Below, piece after piece: positions 15,568-53,303 of a DNA stretch of 64,000 bases. The DNA is from Oidiodendron maius Zn (lineage: Eukaryota; Ascomycota; Leotiomycetes; Myxotrichaceae). The stretch covers positions 1,302,001 to 1,366,000 of the forward strand of contig KN832875.1 of NCBI GenBank assembly GCA_000827325.1, in the 5' to 3' direction. Under the pieces are notes generated by a model. The model made no database searches and was not told where the DNA came from. It saw only the letters and a program-made list of their open reading frames with translations. The first letter of the stretch is position 1, and the number at the start of each line of letters is the position of its first letter. A program made the translations under genes and the position numbers.

Positions 15568-15975
15568 TATATAGATCCCGTCATGCTCGTCGGTCGCGTG
15601 GTCGTTTGAAGGTGGCGCCGTGACAGGATTTAATATGCACGTTGGCGAGGACGTTAGGACGGTAATTTCGATGTCGTGTGCTGTAGGTTGATGGAAGTCG
15701 CGACAAAGCTTCTCGGTTGAACGTCTCTTTTACTCGGGTTTCCTTCCGTCTTGCCGGGAACATGGGGACCCCACCCTTCAGGCACATCTTATCAGAGTCT
15801 ACACAACACGCAAACGCCCTTTTCTCTCTTTTCTCTTTCCTCTTTCAAATTGTCCTTCCAGCCGTCCTGTCCTTTAAATTGTTTCCGTTTAAATAAGTTT
15901 ACTCGGCCAGTACAGTCTCTACTGCCCATCTCCAAGAAGCCCCCCACCTCTCTTCATCGTCCAGCACCCACCATC
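15568..15975. promoter_or_regulatory. Divergent promoter region, SR140-type gene / FAD oxidase
   Basis: 408 bp between two divergent start codons. The stretch nearest the oxidase is strongly pyrimidine-rich (CTCTCTTTTCTCTTTCCTC around 15822-15850), a usual fungal core-promoter feature. No gene is seen. Confidence 0.5.
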
Positions 15976-17274
15976 ATGCCCGCGCCGCCCTCCTCCATCC
16001 TCATAATCGGCTCTGGCGTCTTCGGCCTCTCAACTGCCTACTCCCTCTCTCAGAACCCCCTCTACGCAAACACGACCCTCACGCTCGTTGACCGCTCACC
16101 TTTCCCGGCCTCGGACAGCTCCAGCATCGATTCCTCACGCATCATCCGCGCAGACTACTCCGACCCCGCCTATGCGGCCCTTGGCGCCTCTGCACAGCGC
16201 GTGTGGCGGGATACATCCCCTGGGGCGCTTGGTGAAGGACGGTATAGTGAGAGCGGGCTGGTGCTGGTGGCAGATCCAGGCCGGGATGGGTACGTGCGGG
16301 ATAGTTTGGAGAACGTGAGGGGTTTATTGGAGGGTGGTGCGGTGCGGGAATTGAAGACCAGGCGGGAGATTGATGCTGTGGTTGGCACGGGAGGAGGGAG
16401 TGGACAGTGGGGATATGTGAATTGGAGGAGTGGGTGGGCAGATGCAGAGGCTGGGATGAGGTGGTTGAGAGCAAGGGTGGAGAAGACAGGGCGGGTTCAG
16501 TTCATATGCGCAGAGGTTGTGAGTTTGGTGAGGGAGGGAAAGAGGGTTGTGGGCGCGAGGCAGAGGGATGGAATTATAAGGAGAGCAGGATTAGTGATTC
16601 TGGCTGCTGGTGCGTGGACTGGACGTTTGGTCGATCTGAGAGGCAGAGCTACTGCTACTGGGCAGGTGCTCACGTACCTCGATCTCACGGCAGATGAGCA
16701 GGGGAAGTTAGGCAAGATGCCAGTGTTACTCAACATGAGTACGGGACTCTTCATCATACCACCAAGAGATAGGGTACTAAAAGTTGCACGCCATGCGTAT
16801 GGCTATTCAAACCCTACGAAGATACAGCACCCAGATGGAAGCGGAAACGTCATCGAAGTCAGTTTGCCTAGGACATCTATCGACGATCCTAGTCAGTGGG
16901 TACCGAGGGAAGGCGAAGAGGATTGCAGAGCTGCTTTACGAGAGATGATTCCTTCACTTGGCGATCGCCCTTTCACGAAGTCGCGGATATGTTGGTACAG
17001 TGATACGCCGAGAGGTGATTTCTTGATCACATATCATCCGGAACTGGATGGCTTGTTTCTTGCCACCGGTGGCAGTGGGCACGGATACAAGTTCTTGCCG
17101 GTAATAGGCGACCAGATTATGAACTGCATTGGTGGCGAGTGCCCTGCCGAGTTCAAACAGAAATGGGCGTGGCCAATGGAGACGATGGAGAACGTGGTCA
17201 CCGAAGATGGAAGTCGAGGTGGCCGCCCTGGCCTGGTGTTGCAGGAAGAGGCGCGAAAGGGATCGAGGTTATAG
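15976..17274 (+). CDS. FAD-dependent amine oxidase, sarcosine oxidase / fructosyl-amino-acid oxidase family
   Basis: A flavoenzyme of the MSOX/amadoriase family, which oxidises N-substituted amino acids or fructosyl amines and releases hydrogen peroxide; some members are peroxisomal. The single exon gives 432 residues, the usual length. The N-terminal dinucleotide-binding motif is GSGVFGLSTAYSL (residues about 12-24). Cys339 in RICWYSDTPRGDFLI sits where the family attaches FAD covalently. The C-terminal GGSGHGYKFLPVIGDQI is the second FAD signature. I chose the ATG at 15976 because it lies just before the beta strand of the FAD motif; the frame is also open upstream to an ATG at 15751, but that stretch is low-complexity. 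The C-terminus (ARKGSRL) resembles a weak peroxisomal PTS1 (SRL). The substrate cannot be told from sequence. Confidence 0.88.
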   Translation: MPAPPSSILIIGSGVFGLSTAYSLSQNPLYANTTLTLVDRSPFPASDSSSIDSSRIIRADYSDPAYAALGASAQRVWRDTSPGALGEGRYSESGLVLVADPGRDGYVRDSLENVRGLLEGGAVRELKTRREIDAVVGTGGGSGQWGYVNWRSGWADAEAGMRWLRARVEKTGRVQFICAEVVSLVREGKRVVGARQRDGIIRRAGLVILAAGAWTGRLVDLRGRATATGQVLTYLDLTADEQGKLGKMPVLLNMSTGLFIIPPRDRVLKVARHAYGYSNPTKIQHPDGSGNVIEVSLPRTSIDDPSQWVPREGEEDCRAALREMIPSLGDRPFTKSRICWYSDTPRGDFLITYHPELDGLFLATGGSGHGYKFLPVIGDQIMNCIGGECPAEFKQKWAWPMETMENVVTEDGSRGGRPGLVLQEEARKGSRL

Positions 17275-20642: not shown

Positions 20643-22574
20643 CTACAAGCTTGCGAGCCACGTTCCATATTTGTTACAATGGTCAACCTCGACCTGTTGT
20701 TGCGCTTGCTCATGAAGCCTATTCTTTGACAGCATCCTCCCTATAGATGCTTCCTCGTCATCTATAGCCAACGCCTCATCCCAGAGCTTAGCAAACTTCT
20801 CACCATGGATTTTCTCAACCCAGAAGAACTGTGCTAGCGTTTCTTTAATATCGTGCCGGGTGGAAAGCGGACTGTCCAAAATTATTCTTTCAAAAGCGTT
20901 TTTGGCCCATAATTTATTCACTTCGTCGGAGACAATTCCGCCAATCAGTAGGACTACCCACCAGCGAAATTCTGGAGTTATTGTCCTCTCTTCTATCATA
21001 TTCCCAAGTTCAACCCGCAGCGTGGTAGCAAACATATTGCATGTTGAAGCCCCTGGGAGAAGATCATTGAGAATGGTGACGAGGTACAACAGAACACCTA
21101 ACCGGCAGATCCGCTCAGCCTTATGTTCATAAACAGAATGTCGCGCGAGTTCCATACGGAGCAAGACATATTGCATTGAGGTAAGTTCGTCCCGCAAATC
21201 GAGAGGGTTGGTAGTCGTGTCACCAATATGGATGCTATTTAACGCTCTCGTTGCATCTTCAATCTTGCATAAAACCCAATTGAAATCGTTTCTGAAATGA
21301 ACAAGCCCATTGACTTTTTGAAACCCTTTGCTTTCATAGATACTCTGGGACTGGATGTCCAGGCCAATGACACAGAGATCGATTGGTTCGAAGTATGGTT
21401 CACTAAGCGCGTCGACCGATCCATAGAGATCATTACTATCGCATGTCAGCATATATTTGTTGCTTTTGACTTGATGCTGGCTACTACCGCAAAATTAAAC
21501 TATGCAACACCCAGTTTGACTCAAAACTTTTTAATCCGCCTCGGAGCCGAACCATTTGCTTCAATCCTTGCATATGCACCTCCCAGTTCTTATGATGCCC
21601 AGTAAGCTTCTTCAAAGACAAGTCAGTACGCAACGCAGTAAGTAGGCTGACTTCTTACTTCGGTATATGCTACCATTAGTACTATTAGAATGGTACTGTC
21701 AGCCACAACCGGGGATGGAGACCGCAACCTCTGATTGACAAGACGAATACATTCCTTCAGGTGCGCCACCGCCTTAGGTACCTCTTTCACTGTTAGCGTT
21801 TTGAGGCAAACTGACGAGAAAAGAATGGCATGAAATAGCGCCAGATCTTTAAATGCCATAGGCAAGAAATAATCTCTCATTGGATTATAGTCTGCATATT
21901 TCTCGATTGAATACAGTCTCTCATACGAGCATGTTGTGTCTATAGGAGACATTAGATCGAGACTGAATAAAATCGTCGAATTCTGAAGGCACTCACATTT
22001 GCTCAAAAGCTCGATCATATACGGCTGAATACGGAGAGGCAAGGAGTCGAATGGATCGAACGATGAGGGCCCGCGTATTACGTTGTGTGGCATAAATTGG
22101 TCTTCTGGGAGCTCTCCAAGAATCTGGTGATCTCCATATCCTCTAGTTGAGCTGTTCAGGCTGTTTTGGTCTTCATATGAAGAGCTTAGTGTTTCTTGCC
22201 TCGCCCTACGATGGCGGCGCATCACGTGGGATCGAATTTGTTTTCGAGCAAGAGCATCCGGATGTCCGGGCACGTCTTGACAGGCAATGAACTCATAAAG
22301 TGATGCCGTAGAACTCTTGCTGGTTGGTTTACGCCTCGTACTGCCAGTAAATAGAGAGTTGGTTTCTGAACTACTTTGGGTGTCTGCGACTAATTTCAAG
22401 TCAGTGAAATGTATGAATCACAATGTACTAACTCTTTTTTGGCCTTCCCCTTCGAGAGAAAGTCTTCATTTTCTCAGGTCCATTCTTCCATGACTGTATC
22501 AAGTCGTCACTGATGGGGTGGACTCCGGAAGACGGATTTATATCGAAGATCACTACAGTCGGATCGGCCGCCAT
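20643..22574 (-). CDS. Fungal transcription-factor-domain protein without Zn2Cys6 cluster
   Basis: Four exons (22574-22433, 22389-21659, 21609-21488, 21435-20643) give 595 residues, with introns of 43, 49 and 52 nt. The N-terminus has a basic RRGRPKK patch and the motif RKQIRSHVMRRHRRAR (around residues 95-110). That motif marks a group of fungal proteins which carry the Fungal_trans_2 (PF11951-like) helical domain but no zinc cluster. The third exon restores the family's hallmark NWEVHMQGLKQMVRLRGGL, and the fourth begins NDLYGSVDALSEPYFEP. No CX2CX6C pattern is present anywhere. It is presumably a nuclear regulator; targets are unknown. It is divergent from a short-chain dehydrogenase 477 bp away, which makes that gene a candidate target. 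Confidence 0.75.
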
Positions 22575-23051: not shown

Positions 23052-24175
23052 ATGTCTGGTTCGTGGGGAAAGCCTCTTACTATACGAAGCGAGTTATCCC
23101 CGGCCTCGCCCACTATCACAGAAAAGAATATACCTGATCTTTCAAATAGAGTTCGTTCATCTATGCTGGCCGATATTCTCGCTGCTTGTACTGTACTTTG
23201 ACACTGAATCATTCAAAGGTCATTCTCGTTACTGGAGGCGGATCTGGAATTGGTCTTGCATTTTCCAAGCTTATATACTCCAAGAATGCTATTGTTTGGA
23301 TATCAGCCCGCACTGAAGCCAAGGCCAAGACCGCTATTGAAGAAATCAAAGCCTCCGCACCAAAATCTACTGGAGAGCTCCATTTCATCTTATTAGACTT
23401 TGCCGACCTCCCAACAATCAAGTCCGGCATTGAGAAGTTCCTGACTAACTCGCTCCGGCTCGACATTCTCATGAACAATGCTGGCGTAATGTCTCCGCCG
23501 GACAAGTCTAAGACTAAACAAGGCTTTGAACTGCAGCTGGGAACCAATGTCATTGGTCATCATGTCTCGACAGTGCTTCTCACACCTCTGATTCTAGAGA
23601 CTGCAAAGGTATCTCCGAAAGGAAGTGTTCGTATCATTTGGACAAGCAGCATCGGTGGAGTGAAGCTTTCCCCCCCTAACGGAGGCATATTGTGGGACGA
23701 TATCAATTACGAGCATACTACTAGCGGCTCCCACAATTTCGCAGCTTACGGTCAAAGCAAGGCTGGAAATATATATCAAGCTGCCGAGTTTGCTCGAAGA
23801 TATGGAAGTGCGGGTGTATTGACTGCAAGCGTACACCCAGGGTTGGTATCATCAAATCTGAGCCGAGATAACCGTTTTGAGCCCTTTTTCATGCTATCGG
23901 TATGGAATCTCGGATTGCACTTCAAGTAGAGTCAGTCTTCCGGCCTAACATTGCAATAGAGGATAATGGCAAAACCGGCAATCATGGGAGCATATACGCT
24001 CTTATTCGCGGCGTTTTCTCCAGAACTTGAGCAGAGGAACGGAAAGTACATCACACCGTGGGGACGTTTCATGGCACCGAGGGATGATATTATCAAAGAA
24101 ATTGAAGCAGGGGAGAGCGGAAACGGATATAAGCTTTTCGAATGGTGTAATGAGCAAGTCGAGGCATACATCTAG
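23052..24175 (+). CDS. Short-chain dehydrogenase/reductase (SDR), WW-oxidoreductase/retinol-dehydrogenase-like
   Basis: An NAD(P)-dependent oxidoreductase. Three exons (23052-23150, 23219-23899, 23960-24175) give 331 residues. The first splice joins NIPDLSNR to VILVTGGGSGIGLAFSK, the Rossmann TGxxxGxG motif. NNAGV follows at about residue 127, the catalytic Ser in WTSSIGG, and YGQSK as the YxxxK pair. The last exon supplies AIMGAYTLLFAAFSPE and ITPWGRF, typical of fungal SDRs of this group. The first intron has a weak donor (GTTCGT), and the second intron (60 nt) is supported by the continuity of the C-terminal region. The substrate is unknown. It shares its promoter region with the divergent TF-domain gene. 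Confidence 0.88.
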
Positions 24176-32324: not shown

Positions 32325-33673
32325 CTAGCCGACTCGTTGACTGATCTGCTCACACTTCTTCTGCCAACGGTCTATCCATGCCCTCTCTTTGCCATTAGCA
32401 GCCGAGCTGTGACTTTCCCATTGCTCGACCGACCATGACTCCCACGCATCCTCTTCCGTGGGTCCATGCCTCTTCTGTTCATGTTCATCACTCTCCATCC
32501 ACCACTCGATCCACTCTCGGTCTACTGACTGGATATGGACAGCCTCGACCGACGGCTTATACCCATCGCTTGGATAGGACCCGAAGCCGGATTCCAGATC
32601 GGAGCCATAGAGCTGAAGGTCGGTCTCACGCGTGCGCTGCCGAGACTCGTCGCGGTCGCGTTCGGCTCGGAGCAAAGCTCTCGTGCAATCCATCTCCTCT
32701 TGGAGGACGCGATGGTCAAAAGACGTTCGCGCAGGTGATGTGATGCCCTTGGTAACTCGTTGCTTGTACTTCATCTCCTCGATGGCATAGTCCTCCCAAG
32801 ACTCTACCTGCTCTTGAGCCTTTCTGAAAGTCTCCTCTCTCTTTTCATATCCTTTATAGCTTCCTTCATAGCTTCCGCCTGCTCTATCGTAACGCACTGT
32901 GCGAATTCACTCGTCGCTAGGGCGCCGATGGCTCCTTCACGCTTTTCTTCCCCACCATGGCCTACCTGAGACCCATCATCACTGTATCCTAGGTCACGTT
33001 CCAGCAAGTTGTTTGCCGCCATAAGTGGCTTCATGTCCCCGGCCATATTCCGCACTACGACTTCCACCTCTGCGATGGTACGATGAAGATTCGTCTCCAA
33101 TCCTTGTTTCACCTGCGGAGACAGGTCCATGACACCGGAGACATATTCCTGCATTTTAATGCCGACGTCTGGATCGACATTCCCTGCAGGATACACGTTC
33201 AGTCGTCTTATCTGGTCGAGAGCGCTGTCTTTGGCTGTATAAATATCCTCCAGTTCCGCCATATCTCGTCGATATTCCTCTAGTCTGCTCTCACAGTAGA
33301 AGAGTCTGTGCCACAGGGATATTATAGGCCTTGTTAAGGTCATAGCCAAACGCACCTCGCCGTTTGCACCCTCAAATTGGAATATCTCTGGGTCCTCCAA
33401 AGCTAAAATTGGCTCTGCCCGAGTGGCTTTATCCTCGTTGCTCATGCTCGGCATGGATGAGATAACCGATGGATATTTGAAGGTATTGTTTGCGAGACTA
33501 TTGAGTGCCTCTAGCTCGCTGTCGCTCCCGCTGGCGGACCCCGTTTGCCTTTGACCAGGATTCTGGAGTTCTTGCGTTTGGACCCCTATGTCTGTAAGGA
33601 CCTACCGGGTCGTTTGACTAGTGGGCACTCGTTCGCTAGGTTGTTCGCTCTTGCCATGAGGTTTTGATAGCAT
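32325..33673 (-). pseudogene. Decayed coiled-coil protein gene (uncharacterised family)
   Basis: A run of protein-like sequence in two frames. From an ATG at 33673 (MLSKPHGKSE...) the frame meets an in-frame TAG at 33602-33604, then continues in the same frame through LQNPGQRQTGSASGSDSELEALNSL into the main block. That block includes RAEPILALEDPEIFQFEG, LTRPIISLWHRLFYCESRLEEY and LERDLGY. It ends at a TAG near 32804 after a helical RERRLSERLKSR. A second frame overlaps and carries on with VESWEDYAIEEMKYKQRV and a Trp/Glu-rich tail (EWIEWWMESDEHEQKRHG) to 32325. So it has one stop and one frame change relative to a continuous protein of about 440 residues. A cryptic intron could explain the frame change (donor CAG|GTAGAG), but no good acceptor was found. 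If the start is instead the ATG at 33454, the 5' stop is irrelevant. The function is unknown; the N-terminal part is a predicted coiled coil. Confidence 0.5.
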
Positions 33674-36997: not shown

Positions 36998-38532
36998 TGA
37001 TTTGTTTTACTGTGTCACAGTTCCTTGACGGTCGGAGAACTCCCTGTGGGCGTCTGGTCGCCCGTCGCTCGATATGGTGCCTTGAGGTGCTATCGTGACG
37101 GACTCGGTGCGTGGAGATCGCCCGCAGCTGATACTTGGGATACTCCAGTGTAATTGCTGATGGTGAAAGAGATGTTAACAAGATTTTGGGGGCGTGGAAG
37201 GTATATTGCGGGGGTTGTAGTTTGGATGGCTAAAGAAACTAAACTCTGGAACCGGGCATTTTGGAGGTGCTACGCTGGACAGTATCAATTATCCATGCCG
37301 CCATACCTAGGGCACTAGCTCTATGATGGCCCATCCAGCCATAATCCTAAACGGGAAGGGGCGTTCGAGCGGGGTCAAGAATCGGACGTTGGAGTCGCAT
37401 CGCTGCTCGCGATCATGATATGCGAAGGTATTTCAGTGTGTTTTGCCGACTACTCGGCAGGACCCAACTCAGTCCATTCAAGGAAGTTGCTAATATACTT
37501 ATATCAAAACTAGTTGATGTAGCCAGATTTTGAAGGCAAACAGTACGAAATCTAAATTCCGGGTGCGCTTGCCTCGTGACGACAAAATGCTCCATCGCCG
37601 AGGGGTATCTCGGTCAACGTATATCAGGCAAACTCTCTGGATCACAAAAGCTCATGATAACCAGTGGGATGCTTGAAGGGAAGTAGAGTAGCTAGATGGT
37701 TCAAGGGGAGAATATAACTGCATCTAGTCGCAATTGCAAATGGTCTTCCGAAACTATTCGGTTCCTAACCTTTTTAGGGCGCACAATCAATTTCTCCCAT
37801 ATAAGTACCCCTTTGTGCAGTTTTAGCACTCGTAACAGGAAACTCTTCTTGCTCTCGCAGCGTTGAGAATATTCCTGGACTGCCATGTCGTTCAAATCGC
37901 GATCCACCGCAGCTCGCTTGTATATATGGAGTCGTGAGTGGATGGGGATACTTTTCTTGACCTGCCTAGCTATTCAGGGGTATATCTTGCACTGACCCCA
38001 CCTTGCGCTACAGAACTTTTTCTGCAATTCTACCAGCTCTGTATACATCTTACAACGCACGTAAGAGTGGACGAAGTAACATGGTGTTACTGCGTGAGAG
38101 GAGCATCAGATAAATGTCAGGTGTCAGAATATCAAGTCCTTAAGCCGAGGATTTTTGGATATGATGTCACCAAGCAAGACATAGAAGAAGTATATGCGGC
38201 GGCCACCACGAAGCTCTCGTTTCCACATCAAACTGTTCCAGGTGATAAACAATATCAAGCTCTCACCAGATCCTAACAGTTGCTTTGGATATTCCCCCAG
38301 CAAGTCGAAGGCCATGTTCGCACGGCGGAAGCGTTCCGCTCGGCATTCCGCATCCCCTACTCCCAGGCTCGCTCCCGAGAGTGAACGGCTTTGGAGCTTG
38401 AGTGCGGGGCAATAAATGGCAGGATCAAGCTTGATGACGATTTTATCATTTGTTTATATTCCTCTGTCCATGTCCTGGCTCCTTTTTGTTCATATACTTG
38501 ACTTTTCATACTGTTACAACACTCCGTAAATC
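36998..38532. other. Intergenic, 1.5 kb, upstream flank of hmgA
   Basis: No convincing gene. A plus-strand frame at 37938-38276 (112 codons) and a minus-strand one at 37701-37907 show no family resemblance. The last 200 bp before hmgA carry the CGG/CCG palindromes described separately. Confidence 0.35.
38326..38350. promoter_or_regulatory. Candidate Zn2Cys6 operator upstream of hmgA
   Basis: CGGAAGCGTTCCG (38326-38338) is a palindromic CGGAA-N3-TTCCG site (CGG-N7-CCG). It is followed two bases later by CGGCATTCCG (38341-38350, CGG-N4-CCG). They lie about 185-207 bp upstream of the hmgA start codon. Inverted CGG triplets are the usual target of Zn2Cys6 dimers. The same 10 fixed bases recur between fahA and the CYP504 gene. 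Confidence 0.55.
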
Positions 38533-39947
38533 ATGCCCGTCACGAAATTCACTATTCCTGAGAAATACAAGTACCAGAATGGATTCGGGTCATACCACGA
38601 GTAAGCTCCTCTTAACTGAAGACCTGCGGCTCCCATCTGACCGTCGCCAGATCCGAGGCCGTCGTGGGTGCTTTACCCATAGGTGCCAACTCGCCCCAGA
38701 AGCCTCCCTACGGTCTCTACGCCGAAAAGCTCTCCGGGACAGCCTTCACGGCCCCCCGGCACGAGAACCAGCAGTCCTGGCTATACCGCGTCCTCCCTGC
38801 GGCAGCACATGCCCCTTTCAAGCCATGCGAGGCCTCTTCGTATGAGACGAATCCTGAAGGAAATAAAATGCACCAGATCCCCAACCAGCTACGGTGGGAC
38901 CCGTTTGATTTGGATGAGAATGTCGACTGGGTTCACAGCTTGAAATTGGTAGCGGGAGCTGGAGATCCGACGCTGAAACATGGGATTGGCATCCTCATCT
39001 TTGCCGCCGGGAAGAGCATGAGCAAGAATGAGGCATTCTACAGTGCAGATGGAGATTTCTTGATCGTCTTGCAGCATGGAGTACTGGATATCCAAACAGA
39101 ACTGGGGCGTATCCTTGTCCGTCCAAACGAAATCTGCGTCATTCCACGAGGAGTGAGATACAGAGTTGAACTGCCGGCTGGACCAGTGAGGGGATATATC
39201 CTGGAGCTATATTCGGGCCACTTCCAGCTTCCGGAGCTTGGGCCGATTGGGTCGAACTGCCTGGCCAATGCTAGGGATTTCCAGGCCCCTGTTGCAGCAT
39301 TTGATGAAGACACTACCGGAACATACGAGATAATATCCAAGTTCAGCGGCCATCTGTTTACTGCGACCCAAACACACACTCCATTTGATGTTGTTGCTTG
39401 GCATGGGTTGTACTACCCATACAAGTACGACCTAGGCAGATTCAATACCATCGGTAGTATTTCTTTCGACCATCCAGACCCAAGCATCTTTACTGTTCTG
39501 TCAGCTCCTTCAGATCACGTCGGCACAGCTATCGCAGACTTCGTTATATTTCCGCCCCGTTGGTTGGTCGGCGAGGATACTTTCAGGCCACCGTGGTACC
39601 ACCGCAATACCATGTCCGAATTCATGGGCCTCATCGGTGGGGTGTATGATGCCAAAACAGGTGGTGGGTTCCAGCCTGCAGGAGCAAGTCTCCATAACAT
39701 CATGTCTGCCCATGGCCCTGACGCCGGAAGCCATGAAATGGCCTCAAATGTCGAGCTCAAGCCAGCCAAAGTTGGGGAAGGTAGTATGGCCTTTATGTTT
39801 GAAAGTTGTTTGATGGTTGGCGTGACAGAGTGGGGATTGAAACAGTGTAAGAAGGTGCAAGAAAATTATAACGAGCATAGCTGGACACCTCTGAAGGCAC
39901 ATTTCAAGATTCCCGACGGTGTCGCCAGGGTTAGTAACTCGGTCTAG
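38533..39947 (+). CDS. hmgA: Homogentisate 1,2-dioxygenase
   Basis: A non-haem Fe(II) enzyme that opens the ring of homogentisate to maleylacetoacetate, the central step in phenylalanine, tyrosine and phenylacetate breakdown in the cytosol. Two exons (38533-38600, 38651-39947) give 454 residues, the usual length. The 50-nt intron joins the start [20 protein letters not shown] to [16 protein letters not shown]. The iron-site region [18 protein letters not shown] followed by [12 protein letters not shown] supplies the His and Glu ligands, and the later [10 protein letters not shown] segment matches the region of the third ligand in the human enzyme. An inverted CGG operator candidate lies upstream. 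fahA, the last enzyme of the same pathway, is 10 kb downstream. Confidence 0.96.
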
Positions 39948-41086: not shown

Positions 41087-42348
41087 ATGGCCGCAACAGA
41101 GATGCCTGAACCCCTCCGGGTGTCCCTCGACAGTACCAAGGTGGAGTATGTGAGGCTAGGAAAGAGTGGGCTGAAAGTGTCAGTCCCCATCCTTGGAGCC
41201 ATGAGCTTTGGAGATCCCGGGTGGGGGTCGTGGGTTATCGACGAGGAAAAGGTAAAACAACTTCCTACTTCTATCAGATGGTTTTGAGAGAGTGCAAACT
41301 TACGAAGGATATGGTTGTAGGCCTTGCCTCTGCTGAAAGCGGCATATGACCGAGGTGTAAATACTTGGGACACGGCAAACGTCTACAGCAACGGAGTCTC
41401 CGAAAAGATCATCGCCAAAGCGATTAAGCAGTACAACATCCCGCGACACAAGCTGCTCATCTTGACAAAGTGCTACGCTGCCGTTGGAGAGGGGACGTCC
41501 AGCCGTGTGGGCAACTACCAAAGCGATCTTGGAAAGAGCAAAGACTACGTGAACCAGTATGGTAAGCTCACTCATTAGATCTGTAACCATGGAGAGAAAG
41601 CGAGAAATCTCACACAAATAAAATAGGATTATCCCGCCAGGCCATCTTCAATGCTGTCGCCGCATCACTCAAGCGTCTAGAGACGGATTACATCGATCTC
41701 CTCCAAATTCACCGCTTTGACCCCAATACTCCCATAGAGGAGACAATGGAGGCCTTGCATGACCTGGTGAGGAGCGGGAAGGTGCGCTATATTGGAGCGA
41801 GCTCGATGTGGGCAGTCCAATTCGCTCAGATGCAGTTCGTTGCGGAAAAGCATGGCTGGACCAAGTTTATCAGCATGCAAAATCGATACAATCTCCTCTA
41901 TCGGGAGGAGGAGAGGGAGATGAATCGATTTTGCAACGACACTGGTGTGGGCCTAATTCCTGTAATAACCCTCCTTACCTGGCATTTTATTTCCAACACC
42001 TGCTAACAATCGGCACAGTGGGCTCCGCTTGATCGTGGAAACCTAGCACGTCCGTATGACCAGTATGGCAAGACCGAGAGAAGCAAACCCGACCCCGAAA
42101 GCGGCCTGAGGGAGGTCGACGTCAAGACCATCGCCAGGGTGCAGGAGCTGGCTGAGAAGAAGGGCTGGAAGATGAGCCAGGTGGCGTTAGCGTGGGTTAA
42201 CAAGAGGATCAGCAGTCCCATTATAGGATTCAGTTCGGTCGAGAGGCTGGAAGAGGCTTGCGATGTCCGGGGGAAGACACTGACGGACGAGGAGGAGAAG
42301 TACTTGGAGGAGCTCTACGAGCCTAAGAAGATCATGGGCCACTCGTAG
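41087..42348 (+). CDS. Aldo-keto reductase
   Basis: An NADPH-dependent oxidoreductase of the aldo-keto reductase superfamily (AKR, voltage-gated-K-channel-beta/aryl-alcohol-dehydrogenase-like branch). Four exons (41087-41251, 41321-41561, 41627-41961, 42019-42348) give 356 residues. The fold signature [20 protein letters not shown] opens the barrel. The catalytic region follows: [18 protein letters not shown] with Asp and Tyr, Lys in LLILTKCY, and His in [39 protein letters not shown] and the NADPH-binding [21 protein letters not shown] complete it. It resembles aryl-alcohol dehydrogenases in the YNLLYREEE motif. It sits between hmgA and fahA, so an aromatic aldehyde or alcohol substrate is an attractive but unproven idea. 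CGGAATTCCG lies 3' of it at 42437-42446. Confidence 0.9.
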
Positions 42349-43310
42349 AATGTGTAAGGGGATTGGAGATGACACCAGTACCAATGACGCGAGAGAATGT
42401 ATGGAAAATACTTGCTCCATAGGCGGGACAAACATACGGAATTCCGTGGTCGCGTTTTTACATGCTTGCGTTGTCCCCGTGAGAGTGTTCACCTAGGTAG
42501 GTACCTTCCTCCTTGCATATGAAGACTATACTCCTACTGGATAAGGGAGAGATCATGTGACAGGTTTGTGCCTCTCGTTTGCTGCAACACGAATGGACTC
42601 AAGCAGGAGGGTCTGTATTACCGCTGCACTTTCCCCTGGCCGCGCCCTCATATTATCCCGACTCCTCGTTTGCCACATCCCGTGCCGGTGTGCAGCAGGC
42701 AGCCAGACCCCCACTTGCACCTGAGAAGCATCTTGCAATGGAGTATTTACCATTCTGCTGAAGCCACCGAATAGCTGGGCAGATAGTCGTATGTCTTGTC
42801 TATTCCAAGAGACGCAAACAAGGCGATCCGCGCTAGTACCCCATATTCTGAAGCTCTCCCCGCATTTTTGACGACAGATAATGGCACTCCCACAAACGGA
42901 TACGGCGCGTTTTCAATGGGACGTGCCTTGGTGGCCTAACGAGATGCCGGTCTGAACTTATTACAATGAGGCTTGTGCGGCTATCAACAGGCAGCATGGA
43001 GGCAAGTCACGCGACTCCCAAGTGATCTCACACACGAACCCCGCATTTGATGACCACTCATCCATTCCCGTCATGCTGTTTCCCCCTTTCCTCCTCCCAC
43101 CACCACCTGCATCCTTCTCATCTGGTACCTGATCCCATCCATCATCTCCATCAATCCATCGTTCCATCTCCATCAATCCTCACTCTGCCACCCAGACCCA
43201 ACAGCTCTCTAGAGCCTCATATCACTTCCCAGCTCCATCTCACGTCGCTGTCTCGTGAGAACCCCCTGGTACTTCGAATCTCCGTTCCACGTACCCCCAA
43301 GCACGCCATC
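42349..43310. other. Intergenic, 962 bp
   Basis: 3' flank of the aldo-keto reductase and promoter of the small protein that follows. The last 250 bp are C/T-rich (CATCCTTCTCATCTG..., CCATCTCCATCAATCC...), typical of a fungal leader. No gene is seen. Confidence 0.4.
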
Positions 43311-44180
43311 ATGTCTGCTGAAGCTACCGCCAATCCCCTTACCAAGGTCGACTCTGCCGTCCAAGGTCTCTCGTCGAGCCCTCCCAAAGATGGAGCCAAG
43401 CATCGAAGAGTGAGCTCGAGCGCCGCTGGGGTAATGAACATAAATGACCTCGGTACGTCGTCTCATCCTCGCTGACGGCCACCGACCGGCACCTCCGGAC
43501 AAGGCATCCCCACTGGACAAGGCTGACGAGTGATGTGATATAGAGAAAGATGGAATAGACCTACAGATTGCCAAAGAGACACAAAAACTGAACTGGTATG
43601 CAATCTCTCACTATTCTCATCACGTCATCACTCTCTCCCAATGTTACCACGCACTCGTGGTTCACGTTGAGAGATATCTATCATTGATCCTTAGCTGACG
43701 GACTACATGTGCAGGCGGATTAACAAGTCCCCATCGACGCTGGAAGAGCCAGAAAAATCGATGCTGAAGAAGATGCTGACAACACCACCTGTAAAGAAGA
43801 TTGACCTGCACTTCCCACTGGGACTTGAAGTAACGGCAAGGAACCTAAAAGGAGTAACCGTCAAAGATGCATTAGATGCAATCTATAAGCAGTACCGGAA
43901 GAAGGTAAAGCTCCACTCCTCTCCTCCCCTTCCTTACATGAAAACACCTCGTCTGGCGGCGAGAGACTTGCATACAAGCGAGCATCGACCTACTGTATAA
44001 CAGAGACACTACTAACCTATGATTGCACAGGCGGATGATGAACTCGAGAACCCCGTTCTAGCAGGCTTCGAATGGGACAAGGAGGAATCATGGACTCGGC
44101 TCATTGTCCACTGCAAAAAGGAAGGTGCCCCACAGCCCAAGAAGAAGGGCAAGAAGGGTCAAGAAGGCGAAGAACTTTAG
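43311..44180 (+). CDS. Small hypothetical protein, DUF6699-like
   Basis: Four exons (43311-43452, 43544-43595, 43715-43904, 44031-44180) give 177 residues; the 52-nt exon 2 and the others join in frame. A disordered N-terminus (HRRVSSSAAGVMNINDL) precedes a compact domain with DLHFPLGLEVTARNLKG and VTVKDALDAIYKQYRK, then AGFEWDKEESWTRLIVHCKK, and a Lys-rich tail. The VTVKDALDAIY helix is reminiscent of the DUF6699 family found across fungi, whose function is not established. Assignment is by resemblance only. It may well be expressed, given the consistent splicing and coding appearance. Confidence 0.7.
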
Positions 44181-44796
44181 GTTTTCCTTCGAAGACACTA
44201 CCGCTCGAGTACTTCTATCCCGTGATAGACCAGAGCCCAATGGATGAATTTGCTAGCTGGCTGGCGCGGCTTCGATAAGATATTGATACTTGCAACCCCG
44301 GTAGGCTTGCCACATATATAATGGAAGGAGAGTTCTAGCCGACGCTGTCTTAGGCCGGTGCACCAGACTGGCGAAATAGACCTCTTTGCTAGAAATTGAC
44401 AAATCTCCTCTCCTCATGGCTGCGATCGACTTCGTGATCCTTGCGATTATGGCTGGACCTCGTCTTCGAGTGTAGAATGTGATTTTGGCTTAGTGGTTCC
44501 CTTGGATCCGAGTGAAAGGCGTCTGCGAACGGAATGCCATGTCTGAATTTGGAGATGTGTGTTGTGAAAACACTGTGCGCGCAAATGCAAAATGGCCCCG
44601 CCCCAAAATCTCACGAATCCCGAAACAGCAGTTGTAGCCGACATAGCTCCACTCTTGAATTTGCTGCCCAGCGCAGCTCTCAACAAGAAACATGTCAAAA
44701 GATGTAGGCTATACAGGTACGGCAGTTGTGCTGTAAATTATATTTCTTCGTTTCCTTGTTGTTCTGAAGTATCCCACCGCCGGGATCAACTCCGAA
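44181..44796. other. Intergenic, 616 bp
   Basis: Between the DUF6699-like gene and the DAO-type oxidoreductase. A frame from 44592 (MAPPQNLTNPETAVVADIAP) could be an upstream exon of the oxidoreductase, but the only donor that keeps frame (GTCAAA at 44693) is weak, so I did not join it. Confidence 0.35.
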
Positions 44797-46248
44797 ATGG
44801 ACGAGCGGGTTGCGATACCTGTTATGCTTCCACAAGCTAATCCGACTATCAGCTACTGGCAGGATCCCCCAGATGTGGATATCGCAAACTACCTCAGCAG
44901 TGAGAATGTGCCAGAAATCACAGATACGGTGATTATTGGAAGTGGCATCACAGGGGCTTCGACCGCTTATGGTCTACTATGCAGCGGGGGGACAGCAGAG
45001 AAGCTGGTAATGCTCGAAGCACGCCAAGCATGTTCGGGGGCTACAGGAAGGAATGGTCTGTTCTATAGCACAGGTTCTTTTGCCATACAAGACTGAGACA
45101 CTCACAGAGTAACAGGCGGGCATACCAAAGCAGCCTCCTACCACACGTTCCTCGAACATGTTTCCTCGCATGGTATAGCAGAAGCAGTGAAAATCGCAAG
45201 ACTGGAATATAACACGATTAAGTCGCTACACACCTTTGCTCGCGAGCAAAATATAGACTGCGACCTCTTCAGCGGTGACACTGTGGATATCTTTTACGAC
45301 AAAGAGCAGTGGCAGAGGTGCCTAGCCTCTATCGCAGCGATGCAAAGTGCGATGCCAGAGGATTTAGATGGCGCGGCGAGATACCAGTTCTGGAGTGCAG
45401 ATGAAGCGAAAGAAAAATTTCACATGCGCGGAGAGGTGTGCATAGGCGCCGTGAGCTATGAGGCGGGGAGTCTGAGTGCGTATCGATTGGTGATCGGCAT
45501 ACTAAAGTTGTGTCTGGGTATGGGTATGGAGCTATACACGAACACGCCAGCGAGGAAGATTGAGCAGATGGAAGGCCATTGGAGAGTTCAGACGAATAGG
45601 GGGTACATAAATGCCCGAAGGTTGATATTGGCCACAAATGCGTATACAGGATTTCTGTACCCGAAATTCCAGAAAGTTATTGTACCTTTGAGGGGTCAGG
45701 TAACCGCTCACAGGCCAGGTCGGAATATGCCAAGAGAGGGCTTGCAGACAACATACTCATTTGTCTATGCTGGTGGGTTTGATTACATGATTCCCCGACC
45801 GAAGGGAAAGAGATTTGAAGGCGATATCGTGATTGGAGGTGGCCTAACTAAAGGAACAAATAATGGCGTTGATGAATTTGGCACCACAGACGATTCAGGC
45901 ATGAGTATTGAGATCAGCAAGTACTTAACAGAGGCCACATCTCGATTTTTCGGCTCCGCGTGGGGAGAAGACGATAAAGAAGGGAGGGTAAGAAAGGAGT
46001 GGACAGGCATTATGGGGTATTCGAATGACGGGTTCCCCTTTGTCGGAAAAGTTCTTGGTGATAAGGACTTATGGATCGCAGCGGGCTTTCAAGGCCACGG
46101 CATGGTAATGTGCTTCCTCTGTGCGAAGGCGCTCGTAATCATGATGTCTGGGGAGGAGGAAAGCCTAAACACTTGGTTCCCAGACTCCTTCAGGGTAAGT
46201 GAGGAGAGGATGGCAAAGAAGTTTACTGGAATTTGTGTGTCGGACTGA
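44797..46248 (+). CDS. FAD-dependent oxidoreductase, DAO (D-amino-acid oxidase-like) family
   Basis: A flavoprotein of the DAO superfamily, fungal group related to gamma-glutamylputrescine oxidase (PuuB-like). Two exons (44797-45055, 45116-46248) give 463 residues. The N-terminal PTISYWQDPP segment is typical of this group. DTVIIGSGITGASTAYGL is the GxGxxG FAD-binding motif (about residues 49-66), and ARQACSGATGRNGGHTK is completed by the 60-nt intron. The C-terminal WTGIMGYSNDGFPFVGKV and WIAAGFQGHGMVMCFLCAKA are the second FAD contact and final helix. The substrate is unknown; amines or N-substituted amino acids are plausible. It stands upstream of, and on the same strand as, the Zn2Cys6 factor. 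Confidence 0.85.
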
Positions 46249-46951: not shown

Positions 46952-49532
46952 ATGAACCCCCGGGTTCCATCGTCCCCTCGCAGTCTGTTTTATGTTGAAT
47001 CAGATGTCTCCAATGTGATAATGAACATTCTGGAAAGCCAGGTTACTGATCTCAACTATCTTGCCGAGTCGCCCCTTGCAATCTCTGGCGAGATGAACGA
47101 CCAGCGCCAGTCCAGTGCGGAAAGCCCCGATGCTGCTCCAAATGGCGGAATGAAGAGAAAATCCGATGAATCGAACTCCTCCACAGCTCCACAAACGCGA
47201 ACCAAGAGGAACCGTTACATTTCAATCGCGTGGTGAGTTGGATCGGAACAAAAATCTGTCCTCGTCTCTATGGCTTGTCTGCTAACACTGCTCACAGCAA
47301 CGAATGTAAACGCCGGAAGATCAAGTGCAACGGAAATACGCCGTGTCAACGATGTGGAAATTTGAACCTCCAGTGCCAGTATGCCCCGAACTGCTGCGCA
47401 AATGGCTTCAGAGAATCGGAGGAGTTTCGAAAGATGACTGCGCAAATGCAGTCTCTACAGGAACAAGTTGACAATCTGTACGCCAACCTCAATGCCCTGC
47501 GCAATGGCGACACAATGCGCTTGCCGCCCCCCTCGGAAAGGTCGTTGTCCGTATCGCAACCTTCAGCTGCCCAGTCTATCTCCCCAAGTACCAGATACCG
47601 ACCTCCACCTCAGCATCCTTCCTTTAGAGGCCCAACCAGTTCAGCTTTCAGCCTTGATGTTGCGAAGAACACCCTTCAAAATATGGGGTATCAGCCGCTT
47701 GGCGTAGATGAAGGCCCCATCAGCCAAGATCCAACACCGAATGCATCTCCTCCTGCGATGCAGCCGCCCTTGCACACTTCTGGTGAGAATCCGTCTCGAG
47801 ATCCTATCTGGGCGTTCAGCAAAGAAGAGATGGTTCGGCTTTGCCACGTATATGAAGAGGAGATGGGCCTCATGTATCCGGTGCTTGATATCGAGCAAGT
47901 AATCATAAACGGGACAAATTTATACAACTTTATAGAAGCAGCGACAAGGACAGGCCTCGCAGATCCATCAAATCCCAAGGGAATCAGTGATATTCAATCT
48001 TGCATTCTCAAGATGGTCTTAGCTATATCTACGGTCGTTGAGGGCGACGGCCGCAGCGAGATTGGCTACAGGTTATTTGAGAGCGTAAAGGGTGTGGCCG
48101 ATCGAAGTTTGCATAGTGAAACTATCGATATAAGAAGCCTGCCTTTTCTGGCCCTTATTGTAGGTCACCCTTCTTATGTCATCGCACTTGGCCACATTTT
48201 ATTGACGGCCGAAGCCATCCATTTATTGTCTTTTCTGCTATTTAAAATGATTATACTAATTTTCTATTTAGGCTATTTATCACTTTCACTGTGATGAAGA
48301 GGCTTTGGCTTGGCGGATTATTGGGCAAGTAGCTCGTATGTGCATTGAACTAGGGCTGCACAGACGAGACTCCCTATTTAAGACCGTAACGGATGAAGAA
48401 GAGCGGGCGAGTGTTGTAAAATTATTTTGGTCCGTTTACGTGCTTGACAGGCGTTGGAGCTTCGGCACAGGCCTACCATTTGCAATGCAGGATGCTGATA
48501 TTGATCCTAACTTACCCGAGCCGGTAAGTTGTTTCGTTCTACAAGTCTATCCAGAAACTAATCAGAATATAGGCGATTGGCATTCCATACCTCAGTGTTA
48601 TGATTGCATACTCCCGCATTGGATCAAAAGTCTGGCGCTCTGTTGCTTCCTCAGTTAATGAAGCTCCTGTCACCGCGCTAAAGATCGAGGAGGTTGGATT
48701 TATTGACTACCAAATCCTTCAATGGCAAAAGTCGATTCCTCCTGAGCTTCAGCTTCCTACCTCAACTTCCTCTCAAGCCCCTTCTCGGGCTATGCATCGA
48801 CTCCAAATTCTCCTCTATCTCCGCGCCAATCAAATGCGTATACTGGTTTATAGGCCGGTCCTCCACAGCGCCAATTCGATCCAAGACAATTTGAACTCTG
48901 CAGGTATTGTCGTTGAGCTGGCACGGAATACCATCCGCGCACTCTCGCACCTCAATCAAACAACAGATATATATCGTGCACAGCAAGTGTGCTTCAACTA
49001 TTTCTTAGTTTCTGCTTTGGCAGTCATATTTCTCGCAAGCTGCCACGCACCTGTGCACTTTAGTGCAATGTGCAGGGACGAGTTCTATATGGCACTGGAC
49101 CTGGTGAAGGGCTTTAGCAGCAAATCTTTTGTTAGCAAACGACTCTGGAAAACTATAAAGGGACTCAAGGAAGTGGGTCCTAAATTAGGACTTTCACCGG
49201 ATGGCATTAGCAATGGCATGAATAGCAACATGGAAGATCCACATTCTTCTGCCGCTTTGGCAATGGCTGGCCTTGCTGGCCACGAAATATCGACGCTGCC
49301 TAGCGCGTACGCACAAGATGGAATGGCAGGGGATGGAAATAGTCCGATGAATGGGTTCCAAATGAGTCATGAGATGACAAATTTATTTGAAGCGGCGTTG
49401 GGAAATGGAGCTCTGAATAATGGGACAAATGGAGGATATACTCCAATGGGTGGCGACGGATTAACGGGTATTACGAGTAATGCTTTGGGGGGTGATGAGC
49501 AGCTCTATCAGCGGATGAGAGATCTCTTCTAG
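46952..49532 (+). CDS. Zn2Cys6 transcription factor, candidate regulator of homogentisate catabolism
   Basis: A nuclear DNA-binding regulator. Four exons (46952-47232, 47298-48159, 48272-48523, 48573-49532) give 784 residues. The first splice builds the zinc cluster ACNECKRRKIKCNGNTPCQRC, followed by NLNLQCQY. A coiled coil follows (MTAQMQSLQEQVDNLYANLNAL). The fungal_trans middle-homology domain is at about residues 260-560 (AIYHFHCDEEALAWRIIGQ and CIELGLHRRD, then VYVLDRRWSFGTGLPFAMQD). The C-terminus is Asn/Gly/Met-rich. An ATG at 47093 (MNDQRQSSAES) is an equally good start. The gene converges on fahA with 136 bp between stops. In Aspergillus a Zn2Cys6 activator (HmgR) controls hmgA/fahA and lies beside them; whether this is its orthologue is inference from position and type. 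Confidence 0.88.
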
Positions 49533-49668: not shown

Positions 49669-51021
49669 TTATGTGAGCACAACAGCACTCTTAATAGTGC
49701 CAGTACATTCTCCAAAACCTACATATGCTCCTGGCTCACCTCCACAAATACCTCTAATGGTGATTGTATCACCATCTTTTAAGAACTTCCTCACTTCCAT
49801 CCCAGCCAACATTATATCTTTCTTTCCTGCTTGATTCATCTCCAACATACTGCCTAGATCTCCTTCACCTGTCCCACTAATCGTCCCACTGCCCAATAAA
49901 TCTCCAGTGGCCAAAGGACACCCTCCAATGCTGTGATGAGCGATCATTTGGGTAAAGCTCCATAGGAGGTTTTTCCCATTCGTCTTTGAGATCGTCGTGG
50001 TGTTGCCCTCTGCCGTCGTTAAGTCGACCTCTAGATTAATATCATACACAGTATCCTCCCTATCCTCCTTCAAATAATCCAAGATGGCCGTCTCGTTCGC
50101 CAACTTCGGTGCACGGAAAGGCTCCAAAGCATCAGCGAGTACCACCCAGGCCGAGATCGTGGTGCCAAAGTTTTTAGAATTGAAGGGGCCGAGGGGCACG
50201 TATTCCCACATCTGGATGTCCCGTGCAGACCAGTCATTCATGAGCACGAAGCCAAAGATCGAGTCCGCTGCTTTCTTGATAGGGATGGGTTCGCCCATTT
50301 CATTTCCGTTGCACATGAAGCAGCCGAGCTCCAGCTCAATGTCTAGACGACGGCAGGGACTGAAGGTAGGAACTTTGGGGTCGGCTGTCGGATCGAGGAG
50401 AATTTGTCCATTTGGTCGGCGAATTGGAGTCCCCGAGATGACGACAGATGAGGCTCGACCGTGATAGCCAATTGGAACGTGTTTATAGTTTGGCTGCAGA
50501 GCGTTGGCAGGACCTCGGAACATGGTACTACAGAAAATTAACAAGAGACTAGAGACTCGGAGACGAGTAGCTTACCCAACGTTAAAAGCATGATTCAGGC
50601 CTGCGTAGAAGTCCGTATAATCTCCGATCTGCATAGGCAGGTGTGTTTTCGTCTCATGCTTTGGCAGCAGTGCTGATTTTTTAAGCCCAGCGTTATCCTT
50701 GAGAATATCCGGGTGGGAAGTGGCATCTGAGAATATTTCTTGCAGATATTCTCTGACTTCCCTGTGGACTGGTCTCCCGAGGGCTGCGAACGCGTTTAGG
50801 GTAGGCTGGGAGAGGACCGAGAGATGATCCTTGAAGGAAGAGAGCGCGGAGAAGCCGTTTCCGGCAGCAAACGCCCTTAGATCGAGAACATAATCACCAA
50901 TTGCCACAGCTGGTCTTTTTTCATTCTGCGAATCTCTGCTAGTTATAATACCGAATGGGATATTGCCCAACGAGAAATGACTGTCTGCGGAGATAGATAG
51001 CCAGGAACGGCTAGGGGCCAT
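49669..51021 (-). CDS. fahA: Fumarylacetoacetase
   Basis: Cleaves fumarylacetoacetate to fumarate and acetoacetate, the last step of the homogentisate pathway (cytosol). Two exons (51021-50576, 50527-49669; intron 48 nt) give 434 residues. Metal and catalytic residues known from the mouse/human enzyme are in place: DYTDFYAGLNHAFNVG (Asp and His), LDIELELGCF (two Glu), and LMNDWSARDIQMWEYVPLGP (Asp). The intron falls at FNVG|TMFRGP. I chose the ATG at 51021 (MAPSRSWLSIS); an in-frame ATG 57 bp upstream would add a hydrophobic MKLQLPIIYIFI stretch that the family lacks. It is divergent from the CYP504 gene across 585 bp with an inverted CGG site. Confidence 0.96.
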
Positions 51022-51606
51022 GGCGGAAATGGTTCTACGGTGTATGAAAATATAGATAATAGGTAGCTGTAGCTTCAAACGGATGTGCGGAGAATAAATT
51101 CAAGTGATCTTGAACATGAAGCTGGTGACGATATAGAAATTCAAGAAGTAGTCGATCTCGGGTTCACAGCTGTACGAGAGATAATGCCGAGCGGGGCGGG
51201 GCGGGGTGGAAACAGGGACAGTGCGGAATGTTTCCGGCTTGGAGTTCAGCACTGTCTTAAATTCGTCTCATCATCATGCAGAGACATTTATCCAGTCAAA
51301 CACACATCAGCGTGATACAAGTCCGTATTCGTTTACGTGACATAATCGTCTGCTCTAGACACTGCCTCCCCTCAAATCCCCGCAAGGGAGAAGACGGAAA
51401 TGCAAACGGAAAAGCGCCGCCGTTCATTCCCTATCCACTTTTGGAGGCAAGATGATGGTGCTGAGTACTGCTGATTATAATACCCTCCTACTGTTTCAAT
51501 AGAGCTTACATTCGTATTTATTTCTGCATATCATCTTTGTGTAACGTCACGCCGTATTTTCCAATCCTCTTGAGGGCTTCGTACCTCAAGATCTGCTTGT
51601 TCCCTG
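51022..51606. promoter_or_regulatory. Divergent promoter region fahA / CYP504
   Basis: 585 bp between two divergent pathway genes. It contains CGGAATGTTTCCG at 51224-51236, a (G/C)GGGGCGGGGCGGGG tract at 51191-51206, and two direct CGGAA repeats 12 bp apart at 51395-51399 and 51407-51411, followed by GCGCCGCCG. A TAATACC/TATAATA-like stretch near 51475-51485 may serve the P450. The site arrangement suggests one bidirectional control region. Confidence 0.6.
51224..51236. promoter_or_regulatory. Candidate Zn2Cys6 operator between fahA and CYP504
   Basis: CGGAATGTTTCCG shares all ten outer bases (CGGAA-N3-TTCCG) with the site upstream of hmgA. It lies about 203 bp from the fahA start codon and 371 bp from the CYP504 start. 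Confidence 0.55.
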
Positions 51607-53303
51607 ATGGCTTACCAGCTCGCTGGTCTGGTCTTCCTCGCCGTCATATATACCGTCATCAAATATGTGAACAGCACAGACACACCAAAGATTAAGAATA
51701 TTCCGGAGATTCCTGGTGTTCCTCTCTTTGGTAACCTCTTACAGTTTGGTAACAACCATGCGAAAGTAGCTGGAGAATTGGCCAGTAAATATGGCCCGGT
51801 CTTCCAGGTCCGGCTCGGAAATAGGGTGTGTGATATCGTGATGAATCATATAATGCGCGTCTATTAACTTCAGATAGCGAATAATATTCGCAAATACATT
51901 TGATTCCGTACGACACCTCTGGATCACTAACCAGTCTGCTCTGATCTCGCGTCCGACTCTCCACACCTTCCATACTGTTGTCTCCAGCTCTCAAGGGTTC
52001 ACTATCGGCACATCACCTTGGGACGAGTCTTGCAAGCAACGCCGAAAAGCTGCAGCGACTGCACTTAATAGACCTGCAGTGCAGTCCTACATGCCCATTA
52101 TCGACCTGGAATCCAATGTCTCTATCAAGGAGTTGCTAGAAGATAGTGAGAATGGGAAGAAAGACGTCGACCCTATTGGATACTTCCAACGCTTCGCTCT
52201 TAATACTTCTCTGACATTAAATTACGGTTCGAGGATTAATGGAAAGATTGACAATGAGCTCTTGAAGGAAGTTGTTGACGTGGAGCGCGCAATTAGCAAC
52301 TTCAGATCCACTAGCAACAATTGGCAGGATTATATCCCCCTGCTAAGATTGCTACCGGGATCAAGCACTGAGGCCAACGACTGGCGAGAAAGGCGAGACA
52401 AATACCTCACCTTCCTGTTGAACAAGCTCAAGAGCCAGATTGCGGAAGGAACTGATAAGCCTTGCATTACTGGCAATATCCTGAAGGACCCAGAAGCAAA
52501 ATTGAACGAGAGTGAGTCTTGAGCTTGCGATACTAGCTCAAATCTAACTATTGGTAGATGAAATTAAATCCATATGTCTGACTATGGTCTCAGCTGGGCT
52601 CGATACTGTCCCTGGCAACCTGATTATGGGAATTGCGTATCTTTCCTCGGTTCATGGCCAGGAAATTCAACAAAGAGCTTATGATGAGATTATGAAAGTA
52701 TATCCTGACGGAGATGCATGGACCAAGTGCCTTGTCGAAGAAAAAGTCCCCTACGTAACGGCACTGGTTCGAGAAGTACTGCGATTTTTCACGGTGATAC
52801 CAATTTGTTTACCTCGTGTGAGTATTAAAGATATCAAGTACGAAAACGCAGTTATTCCGGCAGGAACTACATTTTACATGGTATGCTCCCACTCTGCCTT
52901 AGTTCAAAATAGAGTCTCACGACATTAGAATGCCTGGGCTGCCGATTATGACGAGTCACACTTCAAGGATCCTGGCACATTCTCTGTCGAGCGCTACTTG
53001 GAGAACCCCGAAGGGTCCGGCACCCCACACTACGCATATGGTGCTGGCTCTCGTATGTGTGCCGGCTCACATCTCGCCAACCGGGAACTCTACACTGCGT
53101 TCATCAGATTGATCACGGCATTCCGTATTGAGCCCCCAAAAGACAGCAGGGATATGCCGATCCTGGACGCACTTGAGTGCAATGCTGTCCCGACGAGCTT
53201 AACCACAGACCCAAAGCCATTCAAGTGTGGATTCAGAGTCAGAGATCCGAGGAAGCTGGAACAATGGATGAACGAGAGTGAAGAGAGGACCAGGGACTTG
53301 TAG
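51607..53303 (+). CDS. Cytochrome P450, CYP504 family (phenylacetate hydroxylase type)
   Basis: An ER-bound monooxygenase. CYP504 enzymes of Aspergillus hydroxylate phenylacetate at position 2 (PhacA) or 3-hydroxyphenylacetate at position 6 to homogentisate (PhacB). Four exons (51607-51825, 51878-52511, 52558-52880, 52929-53303) give 516 residues, matching the family. It has an N-terminal membrane anchor (GLVFLAVIYTVIKYV) and IPEIPGVPLFGNLLQFG as the proline hinge. The I-helix reads MVSAGLDTVPGNLIMGIAYL, a variant (AGLDT) typical of CYP504. The ExxR motif is in ALVREVLRF, and the haem loop is YGAGSRMCAGSHLANRELY with Cys as axial ligand. The first acceptor is AGATAG|CGAATA, restoring RIIFANTFDSVRHLW. 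Whether it is the PhacA or PhacB type cannot be decided by eye. Confidence 0.92.

Follow-up and report, generated by a model that had tools for sequence, protein, structure and literature searches.

The cluster of catabolic genes on contig KN832875.1 of Oidiodendron maius Zn raises the question of whether the palindrome CGGAA-N3-TTCCG, which lies before hmgA and again between fahA and a divergent cytochrome P450 gene, is a regulatory element of homogentisate breakdown, and which protein might read it. The window referred to throughout is the whole stretch of 64,000 bases that was analysed.

Gene content of the cluster

The fungal nature of the window shows in its intron-bearing genes, its Zn2Cys6 cluster and its Fungal_trans domain. 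The genes lie in the order listed below, with a gene for a Zn2Cys6 regulator placed between hmgA and fahA.

38533..39947, plus strand: hmgA, homogentisate 1,2-dioxygenase (Pfam HgmA_N 1.4e-117, HgmA_C 2.9e-74)
about 41087-42348, plus strand: aldo-keto reductase
43695-43997, plus strand: stretch matching DUF6699
44737-46245, plus strand: FAD-dependent oxidoreductase (DAO match), upstream of the Zn2Cys6 regulator
47021..49532, plus strand: Zn2Cys6 regulator, 761-residue model (Zn_clus 1.4e-09, Fungal_trans 6.9e-19)
49669..51021, minus strand: fahA, fumarylacetoacetase, in two exon stretches (Pfam FAA_hydrolase 4.5e-36, FAA_hydrolase_N 1.5e-32)
51607..53303, plus strand: cytochrome P450 with introns (Pfam p450 on three exon stretches)

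In the spliced model, hmgA has a single short intron (38601-38650) that begins 68 bases into the coding sequence. The fahA and P450 genes are divergent and share an intergenic region of 585 bases. The P450 product, assigned here to the level of the P450 family, was called CYP504 in the preliminary description and may be a phenylacetate hydroxylase. A scan of 38 ORF stretches, which were chosen ORFs and not every frame, revealed no recognisable hppD, hmgX or maiA. Scans of a P450 exon and fahA against a prokaryotic collection, and of hmgA and fahA against a viral one, returned no encoded relative, a result that is uninformative on fungi; peptide patterns in those scans matched 59, 5, 1 and 0 stretches. 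Elsewhere in the window there is a second gene for a DAO-matching FAD-dependent oxidoreductase (15721-17271), and a Fungal_trans_2 match on the minus strand (21626-22417), a second possible transcription factor, lies near a short-chain dehydrogenase gene on the plus strand (23150-23926).

Position and rarity of the palindrome

Two exact copies of the palindrome, to which no strand is assigned, are found in the window.

38326..38338: palindrome CGGAAGCGTTCCG (CGG-N7-CCG), hmgA promoter
51224..51236: palindrome CGGAATGTTTCCG (CGG-N7-CCG), fahA/P450 divergent promoter

An exact scan for the pattern CGGAANNNTTCCG returned these two matches and no others among the 64,000 bases, against a mean expectation of 0.08, and confirmed the preliminary description, which had placed both 13-mers here and noticed no third. 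At least two copies were seen in none of 100 shuffles. Together with its neighbouring bases the hmgA copy reads GCGGAAGCGTTCCGC, with six-base arms. Measured from its centre, it stands 201 nt before the hmgA start codon of the spliced model (ATG at 38533), which bears out the earlier estimate of about 0.2 kb. The other copy, measured likewise, stands 209 nt before the start codon of fahA (ATG at 51021) and 377 nt before that of the P450 gene (ATG at 51607). Since the pattern reads the same on both strands, a mismatch scan of one strand covers the two. No site with one mismatch occurs in the window (null mean 1.95 in 20 Markov sequences), and the 24 sites with two mismatches compare with a null mean of 25.75 in the same 20 sequences, so that the palindrome is not surrounded by a halo of degenerate copies. 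Before the regulator gene and the aldo-keto reductase gene the window scan gave neither an exact nor a one-mismatch copy. Extrapolated from the window to a genome of an assumed 35 Mb, the chance expectation is about 44 copies.

Sharing of the palindrome between the two promoters

The preliminary description had reasoned that ten fixed positions are expected about once per million bases and that two copies in these promoters were unlikely to be chance. Such odds are too generous, because the motif was picked post hoc and recurring palindromes are as common in shuffled sequence. The window contains 1007 gapped palindromes with 5+5 bases and a spacer of 0-15, with 38 kinds recurring, and 30 shuffled windows gave a mean of 38.6 recurring kinds (sd 5.3); recurrence within the window is therefore ordinary. 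CGGAA-N3-TTCCG is the sole recurring kind with an arm that starts with CGG, and shuffled windows contain on average 0.27 such kinds.

The test that we judged fair is that of sharing between the hmgA and fahA/P450 promoters, not of recurrence across the window. The hmgA promoter was bounded at 38050-38532 for comparison with random pairs, or at 38033-38532 for the shuffles and the dyad test, and the fahA/P450 promoter at 51022-51607, a range that takes in the first base of the P450 ATG. CGGAA-N3-TTCCG is the only 5+5 palindrome common to the two. When the promoters were shuffled with dinucleotides preserved, any common 5+5 palindrome appeared in 18 of 4000 trials and one with a CGG-starting arm in none of 4000. 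Among 20,000 random pairs of window segments matched to the promoters in length, a 5+5 palindrome of any kind is shared by 0.47% and one of the CGG-arm kind by 0.02%. The bare dyad CGG-N7-CCG ranks 82 among the 16,658 dyads of the two promoters, and was set aside as insufficient by itself to serve as the signal, CGG dyads this extreme being found in 185 of 3000 random segment pairs (6%). Wider homology of the promoters as a duplicated element was rejected on alignment scores that are ordinary among random segment pairs, the best local alignments being matched by 34% and 8.7% of 1500 pairs under two scorings. On the 3' flank the match seems by eye to extend over 14 bases, with a score that 10% of 20,000 random pairs reach. 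Within the window, the presence of a common element in both promoters above chance is supported for the 5+5 palindrome, the bare dyad being unexceptional, and the palindrome has the form looked for in a Zn2Cys6 site, with inverted CGG triplets at equal spacing (CGG-N7-CCG) in two pathway promoters.

Neighbouring and related sites

Three further sites with inverted CGG triplets lie close to the palindromes or to genes of the cluster, again with no strand assigned.

38341..38350: inverted CGG with a 4-base spacer, CGGCATTCCG, abutting the hmgA palindrome
42437-42446: CGGAATTCCG, spacerless, 3' of the aldo-keto reductase gene
51407..51419: second CGG-N7-CCG of the fahA/P450 intergenic region, CGGAAAAGCGCCG, with one CGGAA half and two mismatches, found post hoc

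The first two had been put forward as relatives of the palindrome. Their coordinates are correct, and their value as supporting sites was rejected: the window has 10 occurrences of inverted CGG with an N4 spacer, these two among them, and the one at 42437 lies at the 3' side of its gene. CGGCATTCCG does contribute a third CGGAA-type half-site to the hmgA promoter (TTCCG, 38346-38350). CGG-N7-CCG occurs 17 times in the window, and four of these start with CGGAA, as was found post hoc, namely the two palindromes, the site at 51407 and one at 47331 inside the regulator coding sequence; another, at 33040, carries the TTCCG side only. Half-sites of the CGGAA/TTCCG type number three in the hmgA promoter, five in the fahA/P450 promoter and none in the aldo-keto reductase promoter, with 2.0 per kb in the window as a whole; two of these necessarily come from each palindrome, and among the five the half-site at 51024-51028 stands directly before the fahA ATG. 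A G-rich run, CGGGGCGGGGCGGGGTGG (51192-51209), has three matches to the CreA-type motif SYGGRG (51191, 51196 and 51201) and stops 14 bases short of the second palindrome. A heat-shock element, GAANNTTC, was also considered and rejected, its 12 matches in the window falling in neither promoter.

The Zn2Cys6 regulator encoded within the cluster

The splice model of the regulator has introns at 47233-47297, 48160-48271 and 48524-48572, and alternative in-frame ATGs are present at 46952, 47093 and 47150. The product combines a six-cysteine zinc cluster with a fungal transcription factor domain. The cluster, CNECKRRKIKCNGNTPCQRCGNLNLQC, is accompanied by a basic region, KRRKIK, and is followed by a 19-residue linker and then a heptad repeat, in which the run M-M-L-V-L-L-L was traced by eye on the spliced model in steps alternating between four and three. 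The nearest zinc clusters of solved structure are those of Put3 (1.2e-05), Hap1, Lac9 and Gal4. Zinc cluster, linker, heptads and Put3-like nearest structures would together suit a dimer on two CGG triplets, and the earlier proposal of a Zn2Cys6 dimer as the binder is sensible to this extent, given that a Zn2Cys6 protein with heptads is encoded between the two promoters; which protein binds was a guess. None of the regulator features predicts a spacing of seven bases, and proximity is its sole link to the sites. The regulator at 47021-49532 is the first candidate for binding the palindromes, at about even odds. A literature search with peptide words from its zinc cluster gave no match.

Comparison with known systems

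Inverted CGG triplets are recognised by Gal4 (CGG-N11-CCG), Put3 (CGG-N10-CCG) and Ppr1 (CGG-N6-CCG). The palindrome resembles these sites in having an inverted CGG pair at fixed spacing before metabolic genes, and differs from them in its spacing of seven and its constrained inner AA/TT. We know of no named regulator with CGGAA-N3-TTCCG as its exact site.

The Aro80 sites of yeast ARO9, ARO10 and ARO80 are likewise connected with aromatic amino acid breakdown, a Zn2Cys6 binder and a 7-bp spacing, but the available text describes CCG repeats (PMC7947893), whereas the triplets are inverted here. Of the 17 occurrences of direct CCG-N7-CCG in the window, none falls in the hmgA promoter and one falls in the fahA/P450 promoter, within the G-rich run, and an Aro80-type direct-repeat site was rejected. 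The yeast-type consensus, WRCCGWSATTTRCCG, has no match in the window. This test covers the direct orientation only; triplet pairs in different orientations are also mentioned in portions of the same paper (PMC7947893), and these would still be compatible with an Aro80-like binder. The AmyR/InuR sites, CGG-N8-(C/A)GG and CGGAAATTTAA, share the CGG/CGGAA half-site of a fungal Zn2Cys6 protein, but are given in the text available as direct repeats at sugar genes (PMC5468973), in contrast to the inverted repeat ending in TTCCG. The Cat8 site is given in an available part of another paper as CCGGN (PMC9245043).

In the tyrosine clusters of A. fumigatus and P. marneffei, as in the window, hmgA and fahA are clustered with a Zn2Cys6 regulator, there HmgR, according to the portions available (PMC3203155, PMC4374905, PMC3914699); those clusters differ from the window in hppD, hmgX and maiA, which were not recognised here among the ORF stretches scanned. 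By the same partial accounts, HmgR is a Zn2Cys6 protein that activates the cluster in A. fumigatus (PMC3203155), and tyrosine-induced expression of the cluster in P. marneffei requires it (PMC4374905). An RSAT-predicted HmgR site is mentioned for P. marneffei and is not spelled out in the text available (PMC4374905).

Proposed function and alternative explanations

From the sequence, the palindrome appears a credible regulatory element of an ordinary kind. In our preferred reading, to which we give a probability of about 0.65, a single dimeric Zn2Cys6 activator of homogentisate (phenylacetate/tyrosine) breakdown uses both copies as upstream activating sites. Each zinc cluster would read one CGG, and selectivity would come from the spacing of seven bases (CGG-N7-CCG) together with the AA/TT inside it. 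Bound some 200 bp before the start codons of hmgA and fahA, the activator would couple their induction to an aromatic inducer, and the nearly equal distances of 201 and 209 nt to these start codons support this. The second site would also serve the divergent P450 gene, which is perhaps co-induced. We infer the binding, the activation, the inducer and the identity of the binding protein. Data from P. chrysogenum bear on this reading from two directions in the text available. Phenylacetate raises five homogentisate pathway genes 6.6- to 90-fold (PMC2657799), and a MEME search on seven phenylacetate-catabolism genes gave motifs below the cut-offs of its authors (PMC2657799), which counts against the reading.

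That a palindrome picked post hoc simply happens to be common to both promoters, with no regulatory role, is improbable at roughly one chance in four. Recurring 5+5 palindromes are plentiful (38 kinds against 38.6 in shuffles), CGG dyads as strong turn up in 6% of random segment pairs, and the promoters have no significant longer similarity, all of which would be expected of coincidence; against it stand the rarity of CGG-arm sharing in promoter shuffles (0/4000) and in random pairs (0.02% of 20,000), and the choice of the gene pair, which was set by biology and not by the motif. A site for a general regulator of carbon or nitrogen control, stress or housekeeping zinc-cluster type, rather than for a pathway switch, is the least probable of the readings weighed here. 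The fahA/P450 promoter does match HGATAR twice and SYGGRG five times, with three of the five in the G-rich run, and the hmgA promoter matches them three times and twice, but GATA and CreA-type matches abound, numbering 183 and 255 across the window, and the palindrome is confined to these two places in the window.

A variant of the preferred reading keeps the element and changes its reader: an HmgR/Aro80-type Zn2Cys6 protein encoded elsewhere would bind, and the regulator in the window would serve something else. In its favour, the accounts available give HmgR as the regulator of the tyrosine cluster in both A. fumigatus and P. marneffei, with 40% identity to the Aro80 of yeast (PMC3203155, PMC4374905), and the spacing of seven is that of Aro80 sites (PMC7947893). 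The near absence of direct CCG-N7-CCG from the two promoters (none in one, one in the other) and the lack of the yeast-type consensus in the window speak against such a binder, which we consider possible though doubtful.

Significance

The preferred reading, that of activating sites for one dimeric Zn2Cys6 protein, can be narrowed: among fungi of this group, CGGAA-N3-TTCCG may serve a phenylacetate/homogentisate regulon as its cis-code, read by the in-cluster regulator and distinct from HmgR/Aro80. We propose this tentatively and think it rather unlikely; if true, homogentisate breakdown would have a second switch with wiring of its own. A literature search, which leaves many papers beyond its reach, found no description of CGGAA-N3-TTCCG or its dyad, so that the specific sequence is without a description found, while the kind of element is already known and ordinary. 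A paper of 2026, available in part, tabulates the HmgR binding site as N/A (PMC12941744), and with a precisely defined candidate site lying next to a candidate regulator the question becomes open to experiment. According to the partial texts available, the homogentisate pathway leads to pyomelanin (PMC3203155) and diverts phenylacetate from penicillin G (PMC2657799), and these connections give the pathway a practical interest even though the element is of an ordinary kind.
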